Shown here piece by piece: positions 54,619-57,249 of a stretch of 64,000 nucleotides of DNA (position 1 is the stretch's first letter; each line of letters begins with the position of its first letter). The DNA is from an uncultured Clostridia bacterium. Lineage in GTDB: Bacteria; Bacillota; Clostridia; TANB77; CAG-508. The stretch is taken from the NCBI GenBank assembly GCA_948468225.1, contig CAOKHH010000002.1, positions 124,001 to 188,000 on the forward strand, written 5' to 3'. The notes under the pieces were generated by a model. The model ran no database searches and had not been told where the DNA came from. It saw only the letters and a list, made by a program, of their open reading frames with translations. The position numbers were made by a program, and so were the translations under genes.

Positions 54619-54647
54619 TTGTCAACACTTTGTTTATGTGATATACT
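54619..54647 (+). promoter_or_regulatory. Sigma-A promoter of the 54750 gene
   Basis: TTGTCA at 54619-54624, 17-base spacer, TATACT at 54642-54647. Confidence 0.7.
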
Positions 54648-54681
54648 AAGATTATTAAAAGTTATTATATCTTTCGAATCT

Positions 54682-54708
54682 TTTTTCGGAGGATATGCCT
54701 CCGAAAAA
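54682..54708 (+). promoter_or_regulatory. Conserved leader hairpin, copy 1 (54750 gene)
   Basis: TTTTTCGGAGG/CCTCCGAAAAA, an 11-bp stem, preceded by CTTTCGAAT. The same leader occurs before the gene at 55956-56177. The CCTCC arm could also pair with the downstream AGGGGG ribosome site, offering an alternative fold. Confidence 0.7.
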
Positions 54709-54749
54709 TAGGACAAGAAATTTACTTATTTTTTAGGGGGTTATGCTAT

Positions 54750-55190
54750 ATGACTTTGTTGGAAAAATACTATGTGTACTTCGAAACAATTCGGCTCATC
54801 CACCATCGAAATATTCCCAGATATTACTCGAGTAATGCAGTAACATTTAAACCAAAAAATAAAAACTGCATTTTGGAAGTTACACAGTTTTTGTCAGAAT
54901 TTATAGCACTAGCGGTTGAGAAAAAAATTATCAGCTACTTAAGCTCAGATATACAAACACAATTTGTACATGAGTTTTCTGTTCAGTGCTATATTAAGTC
55001 TAATGGTATTCCAGTAATCATAGACAATTCTGATGACACTTGTGATTTTCGGTTTGTTAAATTCAAAACTGCTAACCTTTTGTATAAATATCTTAAATAT
55101 TATGCAAAGGAAAATCATTTTTTGAATACAGCCTCTCAGTATGACTCGGATCTTGGTACAGATGTATACACTTTTTCAATAAGTTTTTAG
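54750..55190 (+). CDS. Hypothetical protein, 146 residues
   Basis: I do not recognise this protein. It is soluble, with no signal peptide; the first 60 residues are basic, and a likely mixed alpha/beta core covers residues 40-146. The ribosome site is AGGGGG rather than AGGAGG, 9 bases from the ATG. It has a consensus-like promoter, a conserved leader hairpin and an 18-bp perfect terminator stem, so it is monocistronic. CGG is used twice as an ordinary codon (TIRLIHH, DFRFVK). It converges on thiN. Confidence 0.6.
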   Translation: MTLLEKYYVYFETIRLIHHRNIPRYYSSNAVTFKPKNKNCILEVTQFLSEFIALAVEKKIISYLSSDIQTQFVHEFSVQCYIKSNGIPVIIDNSDDTCDFRFVKFKTANLLYKYLKYYAKENHFLNTASQYDSDLGTDVYTFSISF

Positions 55191-55194
55191 TGTT

Positions 55195-55234
55195 AAAGCA
55201 AAGACCTTTAGCTTCAGCTAAAGGTCTTTGCTTT
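55195..55234. terminator. Bidirectional terminator, 18-bp stem
   Basis: AAAGCAAAGACCTTTAGC, loop of 4, exact complement. Ends the 54750 gene and overlaps the thiN stop codon. Confidence 0.85.
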
Positions 55235-55874
55235 AATCTTTTGATTTTATCATTACTAGTATTCCAGTTTTTATAATAATTTCAGCTTCATCTAATATTA
55301 CTTCATTGCTTACACCTATACTATGTCCAATTTCTAATGTTGCATTATCTAATAAGTATTTAAATCCTTTTAGCGTAATTCCTGTTACATTAGTAGTTAA
55401 AGGTATTAGTGATATATAGTTATATTTAAAATCCTTCACCTTAGTTATTCCAGATGTTATTAGTTCTATTTCATTATTTTTATCTATAATTTTGCAACTT
55501 ATATTATTATCTAACGCCTCTTTTAATATATGAATATTTGCAATAGCATGATCCATTCTTTTTCCTAATGCTCCCAATATATATATTTGATTACTTTTTA
55601 ACTCTATTGCTAACTTTAATGCCATATGTGTATCTGTATAATCCTTCTCTGGATTTAACTTCACTATTTCTATATTCTTTTTAGTATATTCATTTAATAT
55701 ATTTTCATTTACAGAATCAAAATCTCCTATTATGTAATTGGGTTTTGTATTTATTTTGTTTAATATCTCTAAACCTTTATCCGCTACTATTACTTTATCT
55801 ATCTTTTGTTTTTGTATAAAAGATTTTAAAAATTCTTCTTCTATATCTCCACCAGAAATAATTAGTGTTATCAT
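55233..55874 (-). CDS. thiN: Thiamine pyrophosphokinase
   Basis: 213 residues. Motifs of the TPK family: SGGDIEEEF at the start, IIGDFDSVNENIL near 52, NPEKDYTDTHMALK near 75 and LGALGKRMDHAIANIH near 100, then a C-terminal beta sandwich. It transfers pyrophosphate from ATP to thiamine, making the cofactor used for example by Dxs at the end of this window. AAGGAG lies before the ATG. Confidence 0.93.
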   Translation of the reverse strand: MITLIISGGDIEEEFLKSFIQKQKIDKVIVADKGLEILNKINTKPNYIIGDFDSVNENILNEYTKKNIEIVKLNPEKDYTDTHMALKLAIELKSNQIYILGALGKRMDHAIANIHILKEALDNNISCKIIDKNNEIELITSGITKVKDFKYNYISLIPLTTNVTGITLKGFKYLLDNATLEIGHSIGVSNEVILDEAEIIIKTGILVMIKSKD

Positions 55875-55914
55875 TTTATTCTCCTTTTTATTTTAATACA
55901 TAATATATTACAAA

Positions 55915-55943
55915 GGGCGCTTATCTTTTACAGACAAGCGCCC
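55915..55943 (-). terminator. Terminator of the zinc-finger gene
   Basis: GGGCGCTT/AAGCGCCC stem with an AT-rich loop, then TTTGT on minus. Confidence 0.75.
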
Positions 55944-55955
55944 TGCTGTGCTCAA

Positions 55956-56177
55956 TTAGTCTTCTTTTGCCGGTACGAAGCCACTTCCGCCGCAAACGAG
56001 ACAAAGATTTTTCACCAGAGGAGAATGACTTCCTCCACTACCTTTGCAGTTATCGCATATCTCCATACCTTCAGGAACATCTACTTTCCCCAGCCGATTG
56101 CAGACAGGATATTTTACTTTAATGTCCATCACCGGAATTTCTCCTTCTCCAAAGCATTTTTTGCATGTCTTGAGCAT
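55956..56177 (-). CDS. DnaJ-type zinc-finger small protein
   Basis: 73 residues built of CxxCxGxG modules like those of DnaJ: CKKCFGEG at 5, a degenerate module at 26 (YPVCNRLG, first Cys replaced by Tyr), CDNCKGSG near 42 and CLVCGGSG near 59. It should bind one or two zinc ions. There is no J domain. A stand-alone zinc module could act as a chaperone helper or adaptor; the function is unknown. The ribosome site is AAGGGGG. It has its own promoter, the same leader hairpin as the 54750 gene, and a CGG codon (NRLG). Confidence 0.75.
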   Translation of the reverse strand: MLKTCKKCFGEGEIPVMDIKVKYPVCNRLGKVDVPEGMEICDNCKGSGGSHSPLVKNLCLVCGGSGFVPAKED

Positions 56178-56209
56178 AATGTTTTTCCCCCTTAAAAATT
56201 GTTAATTTA

Positions 56210-56236
56210 TTTTCGGAGGACATTGCCCTCCGAAAA
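56210..56236 (-). promoter_or_regulatory. Conserved leader hairpin, copy 2 (zinc-finger gene)
   Basis: TTTTCGGAGG/CCTCCGAAAA, a 10-bp stem, with CTTTCGAAT before it on minus. Matches copy 1 in stem and in flank; loops differ. Confidence 0.7.
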
Positions 56237-56269
56237 TATTCGAAAGGCATTCCTAAAAGGAACTTTTTT

Positions 56270-56298
56270 ATTATAGCACATTTTTATTGTTTATTCAA
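56270..56298 (-). promoter_or_regulatory. Sigma-A promoter of the zinc-finger gene
   Basis: TTGAAT at 56298-56293, 17-base spacer, TATAAT at 56275-56270. Confidence 0.8.
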
Positions 56299-56807: not shown

Positions 56808-56872
56808 ATATTTGTTTCTTTATGAAACTTTATATATTCCTACCCATGGTTTGGGTATTTTATTCTTTTCCT

Positions 56873-56893
56873 CTCAGACGTCCAATGTCTGAG
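56873..56893 (+). promoter_or_regulatory. Leader hairpin of the 56935 gene
   Basis: CTCAGAC/GTCTGAG, a 7-bp stem in the 5' leader. A second short stem TACCCA/TGGGTA lies about 30 bases before it. Confidence 0.55.
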
Positions 56894-56934
56894 TAGCATA
56901 TATTCCTTTAAGCCCTATGATAAGGAGGAGAACT

Positions 56935-57249
56935 ATGGAAAGAAATATTGTAAAAAAAGATGATATTGAGGCTTTTGTTAAGCGTTATATACACAACTTG
57001 CTTCGAGAACATTTTGGCACTGGCACCCTTGAAGTTTTCGTACGGAGTACCGAAATAGTAGTCACCGTTCCCATAAAGAATTATGAAGAAGCTTTCGCCA
57101 AAATGCTTTCATACAACATGCCGGCCGAAATCTCGGATCTTACTTGTGGCTATATCAGATATGCTTATACTTGTAAGGATAATCCCGCCTGCGGGAAAGA
57201 GATCACTATCGGATTTGCGCACTTCTACGAATTTGCCGAGGAATCATAA
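56935..57249 (+). CDS. Hypothetical protein, 104 residues
   Basis: Not recognised. It starts at ATG 56935 with AAGGAGG upstream. Helix (IEAFVKRYIHNLLREHF), then strands TLEVFVR, EIVVTVPI, a helix and further strands with two Cys (DLTCGYIRYAYTCKDNPACG). This is a small alpha/beta fold without membrane segments. It is monocistronic, with a perfect promoter, a leader hairpin and terminators. CGG is used in frame (FVRSTE). It lies between the tRNAs and folA in the opposite direction, part of the group of small GC-richer genes. Confidence 0.65.
   Translation: MERNIVKKDDIEAFVKRYIHNLLREHFGTGTLEVFVRSTEIVVTVPIKNYEEAFAKMLSYNMPAEISDLTCGYIRYAYTCKDNPACGKEITIGFAHFYEFAEES

Follow-up and report, generated by a model that had tools for sequence, protein, structure and literature searches.

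Here we report a class of RNA leaders, of which about 100 members were found in one order of uncultured Clostridia, many of animal-gut origin, and which came to light through two unrelated genes in a 64,000-nucleotide stretch of DNA (hereafter the window). We propose, with a probability of roughly 0.7, that each of these leaders is a cis-acting bistable RNA switch on the translation initiation of a downstream accessory gene, sealed in its resting form and, by inference, open in the nascent transcript until it refolds. Many genes of otherwise unknown character are thus probably under the control of a single RNA switch that had not been recognised. For a large set of orphan genes from uncultured gut bacteria, this would supply a common regulatory handle by which genes beyond the reach of homology could be grouped and studied. 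No paper describing the leader was found in the literature collection searched.

Organization of the locus and its leaders

Gene 1 (54750..55190, + strand) encodes a protein of 146 aa that belongs to no family and has no match in Pfam, PHROG, PADLOC or NCBIfam; it is closed by an intrinsic-terminator-like hairpin (55193..55236, +). Gene 2 (55956..56177, - strand) encodes a cysteine-rich protein of 73 aa that is DnaJ zinc-domain/anti-TRAP-like below the Pfam cut-offs, and is followed by an inverted repeat (AGGGCGCTTATCT/AGACAAGCGCCCT; 55914..55944, -) that may be a terminator. The gene between them (55233-55874) was named thiamine-pyrophosphokinase-like by reading its sequence.

Leader 1 (+) consists of CTTTCGAAT (54671-54679), a hairpin TTCGGAGG-ATATG-CCTCCGAA (54685-54705) and the sequence AGGGGG (54735-54740), followed by the start codon of gene 1 at 54750. 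The same elements stand in the same order in leader 2 (-), with CTTTCGAAT at 56246-56238, the TTCGGAGG/CCTCCGAA hairpin at 56234-56212, AGGGGG at 56192-56187 and the start codon at 56177. Besides the Shine-Dalgarno sequence (SD; arm D), both leaders carry three arms, namely A (CTTTCGAA), B (TTCGGAGG plus loop bases) and C (CCTCCGAA), and the pairings of neighbouring arms (A:B, B:C, C:D) are mutually exclusive and end on the SD of the main gene. The third arm, A, is the CTTTCGAA that lies 5' of both hairpins and is complementary to TTCGGAGG and loop bases. Its complementarity extends into the hairpin loop by bases that differ between the leaders, being AUAUCUUUCGAA/UUCGGAGGAUAU in leader 1 and GCCUUUCGAA/UUCGGAGGGC in leader 2.

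In leader 1, arm A (AUAUCUUUCGAA; 54667..54678, +) can form 12 bp with arm B and the loop, and it is conserved and covaries with these partners in relatives. Arm B (UUCGGAGG plus the loop bases AUAU; 54685..54696, +) can pair with A or C, arm C (CCUCCGAAAAAUA; 54698..54710, +) can pair with B or with the SD and the U-run upstream of it, and arm D comprises UUAUUUUUUA and the SD GGGGG (54726..54740, +). Leader 2 begins with segment Z, a small 5'-terminal hairpin GUUCC UUUU AGGAAU (56249..56263, -), followed by arms A (GCCUUUCGAA; 56239..56248, -), B (UUCGGAGGGC; 56225..56234, -), C (CCUCCGAA; 56212..56219, -) and D (SD AAGGGGG; 56187..56193, -). An earlier note on this DNA had described a common leader before the genes at 54750 (+) and 55956 (-), whose coding sequences it called unrelated, and both statements hold; it was also right that CCTCC can pair with AGGGGG by way of one G-U pair. 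It had seen CTTTCGAA as well, and missed its role as a pairing arm.

Consensus matches to sigma-70-like promoters lie just upstream of leader 1 (TTGTCA - 17 nt - TATACT, extended TG; 54619..54647, +) and of leader 2 (TTGAAT - 17 nt - TATAAT, extended TG; 56270..56298, -). Such matches are equally frequent in shuffled sequences, and the transcription start sites were inferred from the promoter consensus. AAGAU (54648-54652) was considered as a Z arm of leader 1 and dropped because it lies 5' of the likely transcription start. The window contains a third small orphan gene, encoding 110 aa from the ATG at 56917 (56917-57249, +), with another promoter-leader hairpin (CTCAGACGTCCAATGTCTGAG) and an AAGGAGG site (region 56825-57249); its arms depart from the A-B-C-D scheme, and it is not counted in the leader class.

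Distribution of the leader

The genome from which the window derives contains TTCGGAGGN3-12CCTCCGAA in six exact copies and lacks the control pattern written backwards, so the recurrence of the leader is not a matter of chance. A seventh, divergent leader was recovered with a covariance model (E 2e-5 to 2e-4), giving a total of 7 for this genome. A search by architecture alone, which covered 392 kb of the same genome with 329 SD-bearing starts, returned five leaders, all of them already known, where shuffled sequences gave an expectation of 0. Among the 192 genomes searched with the covariance model, 75 (own genome included) had at least one leader, as did 34 of the 72 genera of the family and order, and a wider model applied across the class matched 6 of 291 genomes, all from the same order. 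The organisms are known from MAGs, the E-values of these custom models are rough, and reverse-strand matches at the same place were not counted as leaders because the hairpin is near-palindromic.

The B-C-SD pattern was present in the genomes of 9 of 114 relatives, and its matches among 84,980 species came mostly from AT-rich clostridial MAGs. The exact pattern also matched Lachnospiraceae (L035, L047, L092), Saccharibacteria (L069, L090), Coriobacteriia and GC-rich genomes. Matches in other clades were rejected as members of the class, since they mostly lack a significant A:B. Of 37 pattern matches from outside the order, only 5 had A:B at p<=0.05, a rarity which argues that the search pattern does not itself produce A:B. 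In two of the Lachnospiraceae (L047, L092) and in both Saccharibacteria (L069, L090), similar GGAGG/CCTCC hairpin leaders are followed by a KdpF/holin-like ORF of 30-31 aa and a protein of 632-663 aa, and in L092 B also pairs significantly with an upstream arm. The GGAGG/CCTCC leaders of these two groups are possibly convergent.

A viral or mobile origin of the leader was rejected, given that nothing similar to it was found in a phage collection and that only one (L115) of the five pattern matches on viral contigs was clearly a leader. On this contig, genes identified by eye as tail, holin-like and endolysin-like precede the leader gene, so prophages may carry some leader genes or lie next to them. 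An association with tRNA genes was also rejected (7 of 60 loci, near the estimated chance).

The 93 proteins encoded downstream of the leaders fall into 70 families (BLAST E 1e-3), most of them without Pfam matches. Sixty-three representative proteins gave 9 Pfam families in all, including SPFH, a CoaD-like nucleotidyltransferase, DUF2784 and DnaJ zinc, and matches to PHROG and PADLOC were few. Some of the downstream proteins are small and hydrophobic, and most are not of the short hydrophobic toxin kind. Many leader genes stand alone as single genes and are atypical in composition. The G + C content of leader genes at third codon positions (0.295 vs 0.174 in neighbouring genes, and higher in 79 of 85 comparisons) is raised, as it should be in genes that are atypical or were acquired recently. 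The spacer motif TTAYRTAA is enriched in the leader promoters (23/54 vs 14/261; Fisher 3e-11), and TTTAYRTAAA, in either orientation, usually ends about 7 nt before the -10 element (e.g. in L136, L178 and L170) and seldom occurs in the other promoters at these leader loci. The motif is possibly the site of a shared transcription regulator.

Covariation of the arms

Across 98 distinct leaders, B:C was paired in 97.4% of the cells, with double changes in 7 of its 8 pairs, values that none of 500 shuffles reached. The A:B pairing, analysed in 52 leaders, had 56 double-changed cells where 21 were expected; its covariation score was 0.260 vs 0.163, and none of 500 shuffles reached either value. When A was slid against B by one or two columns, at most 14 double-changed cells were obtained, and 16 at +3. 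The number of A:B pairs with a double change (4) was not above that in shuffles, and the changes cluster where the 5' end of A meets the hairpin loop. Considered type by type, A:B surpassed its shuffles at p<=0.05 in 35 of 40 independent leader types (mean z -3.4), and in 15 of 40 at the same threshold when partners were swapped, a test that is weaker than shuffling because B is nearly constant. The 40 types share ancestry to an unknown degree, and the shuffle counts are therefore not exact probabilities.

Comparison of orthologues added to these data. A locus from the same genus (L214) is syntenic with that of the window, having a 146-aa homologue as well as thiN-like and DnaJ-like genes, and the orthologue of gene 1, a protein only 27% identical, has its own leader with all arms kept. 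The predicted A:B energies of the two leaders were -14.0/-16.4 kcal/mol for cognate arms vs -11.5/-12.6 kcal/mol for crossed arms, and those of a YkgJ-like pair (named by its cysteine motif) were -15.7/-14.8 vs -11.8/-10.0 kcal/mol. By these energies, the A:B changes between orthologues are compensatory. Orthologues of gene 2 in two genomes (G001 and G002) carry the same leader. The recurrence of the leader, the presence of its arms and the covariation of A:B and B:C are in this way established, at the level of sequence comparison.

Predicted folding and proposed mechanism

All folds were predicted with standard energy parameters, without Mg2+, proteins or ribosomes, and no experiment was done; that the SD is sealed, and in what order the arms fold, is supported by computation only. 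The predicted minimum-energy fold of leader 1 combines A:B with C:D and seals the SD. Among 38 leader types, the ground state of the full-length RNA was [A:B][C:D] in 24 and [A:D[B:C]] in 6, and in about 8 it was neither of these sealed forms. If the RNA was exposed only to the end of C, B:C was favoured in 31 of the 38 types, and a heuristic path search put the barrier from the ON to the OFF form at a median of 9.3 kcal/mol. The median cost of opening the SD was 5.1 kcal/mol in the leaders vs 1.9 kcal/mol in 94 other GGRGG genes of the window's genome, which served as controls (p 3e-8), and it exceeded 4 kcal/mol in 68% of the leaders vs 17% of the controls. The best computed fold of leader 1 with an open SD retains A:B, not B:C.

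In about half of the leader types, the 5'-terminal segment Z is able to pair with a portion of A, and in these it starts near the likely transcription start. A 5' hairpin is present in many leaders, but only 12 of 40 types have one that surpasses shuffles at p<=0.05. Z is weak in leader 1, and the Z hairpin of leader 2 abuts A without overlapping the A:B pairs.

The proposed mechanism starts from the alternation of anti-SD-like arms (A, C) with SD-like arms (B, D). The resting, lowest-energy RNA would have A on B and the loop, and C on the SD; in a minority of leaders, A would pair with D around an intact B:C, and the SD would be sealed likewise. Whenever A is unavailable, B:C could form and keep C off the SD, and ribosomes could initiate. 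This state is predicted for nascent RNA, in which A would be unavailable and B:C would form before D is made, and the pairing of Z with part of A in roughly half of the leader types may be another route to it. The most likely use of such a switch would be self-limiting translation, in which new transcripts are open and then refold into the sealed form, presumably by strand displacement starting on the B:C loop.

The earlier note had suggested that CCTCC, by alternating between GGAGG and the SD, could switch translation on and off, and that a lack of further copies and of covariation would refute this. The covariance search that it recommended yielded many copies in the window's genome and in relatives, covariation was found in the hairpin as well as in A:B, and the cost of SD opening lends further support. 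The proposal was nevertheless incomplete, because it omitted CTTTCGAA (A), the arm that sets C free.

Alternative explanations and comparison with known systems

That refolding triggers the switch is inferred, and the main rival is a trans-acting factor holding A or the 5' hairpin, i.e., the same RNA switch set by an order-wide RNA-binding protein or small RNA and forming one regulon. The leader is common to many unrelated genes and TTAYRTAA is also enriched in its promoters, which suggests coordinated control. However, the arm sequences are not conserved between leader types except for the GGAGG/CCTCC core, and because the arms vary in this way they would offer few constant bases to an RNA or protein that recognises sequence; we regard such a factor as possible, though not as the favoured trigger. 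The hairpin might also merely stabilise the 5' end of the mRNA, as 5' hairpins can do, or act at the DNA level without any switching of translation. The isolated, single and compositionally atypical nature of many leader genes would suit such a role, but it would leave the covariation of A with the loop, the complementarity of C to the SD and the high cost of SD opening unexplained, which makes it improbable. An RNA thermometer, to which a stem that sequesters the SD would likewise point, is very unlikely: between 15 and 42 C, none of the 38 types was predicted to have an open SD with a probability above 0.5, and at 50 C this was predicted for 2 of 38, so that the SD is not predicted to open over the physiological range. 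A transcription attenuator was rejected, as a U5 run lies at most 3 nt from arm C in only 1 of 97 leaders and none was reported at the leaders of the window.

Mutually exclusive helices that end on the SD are the usual expression platform of riboswitches, and in translational riboswitches (e.g. SAM-III/SMK and preQ1) anti-SD and anti-anti-SD arms end on the SD as they do here. A leader that binds a metabolite is nonetheless hard to reconcile with the alignments, which have no conserved unpaired core across leader types; unlike riboswitches, the leaders yielded no conserved core for binding a ligand, and their arms change freely so long as the changes are compensated. Moreover, the 5' segment is only short, the downstream genes are unrelated, mostly unknown and without a common pathway, and none of the leaders searched has a match above any Rfam gathering score. 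The leaders of the window had no cis-regulatory match in Rfam down to E 5, and 18 loci of relatives searched at gathering scores contained only tRNAs and one distant T-box (L170:11-231). We therefore give a riboswitch little credence. Leader-peptide translational attenuation, as in the erm and cat genes, has in its favour that the order of the arms and the sequestration of the SD are those of erm-type attenuators, but an SD-like sequence with a start codon occurs inside only 7 of 97 leaders and is not conserved, and there is little space for a reading frame 5' of B. Of the explanations weighed here, it has the least to recommend it.

The proposed refolding switch has partial counterparts in other systems. 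The leader of the MS2 maturation gene, part of a phage RNA with a long-distance clover-leaf fold, folds with a delay and permits translation only before its equilibrium fold is reached. Translation in the proposed switch would have the same limit, but in contrast to MS2 the present leaders have short local arms, are bacterial and serve many genes. In the translational attenuators of erm and cat genes (e.g. ermC and ermB), alternative hairpins decide whether the downstream SD is occluded (PMC5118997). The same would hold for the present leaders; unlike erm and cat, they have no conserved leader peptide and no link to resistance genes, and about 70 unrelated protein families lie behind this one class of leader. 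Toxin mRNAs of the AapA3/IsoA3 type have metastable SD-sequestering hairpins that are inhibitory in the nascent RNA and are activated by 3' trimming (PMC6733600). They resemble the present leaders in that several anti-SD segments compete for the SD, the co-transcriptional folds are metastable and the full-length form is locked, whereas the nascent fold of the present leaders is predicted to be open, everything takes place within a leader of roughly 90 nt, and most of the proteins behind it are not of the toxin kind. As tested, the leaders do not belong to the erm/cat family, and probably not to that of AapA3. The class is a variant of SD-sequestering leaders that stands out by its many unrelated orphan genes across one order.

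A more far-reaching version of the refolding switch, which we offer only tentatively, is an RNA timer free of ligand and peptide, an order-wide design that restricts translation to fresh transcripts and serves, together with the shared promoter-spacer motif, as a common module for dozens of unrelated, fast-evolving orphan genes. If the order of folding is the trigger, nature would here have made a compact translation timer from nothing but SD-like and anti-SD-like arms in alternation, and the leader would be a useful model for co-transcriptional folding and RNA design.

Leader-like elements were also observed outside the set described above. One locus (L172) has two nearby leader-like hairpin units (979-1077 and 1977-2071) without a clear downstream gene. 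Another (L227) has two near-identical tandem promoter-leader regions at about 9551 and about 11158 (- strand coordinates), which were missed by the leader model and are of similar design, with TTTACATAA and CCCTTTT...AAAGGAGG; they precede two genes that share the N-terminus MKKVL.
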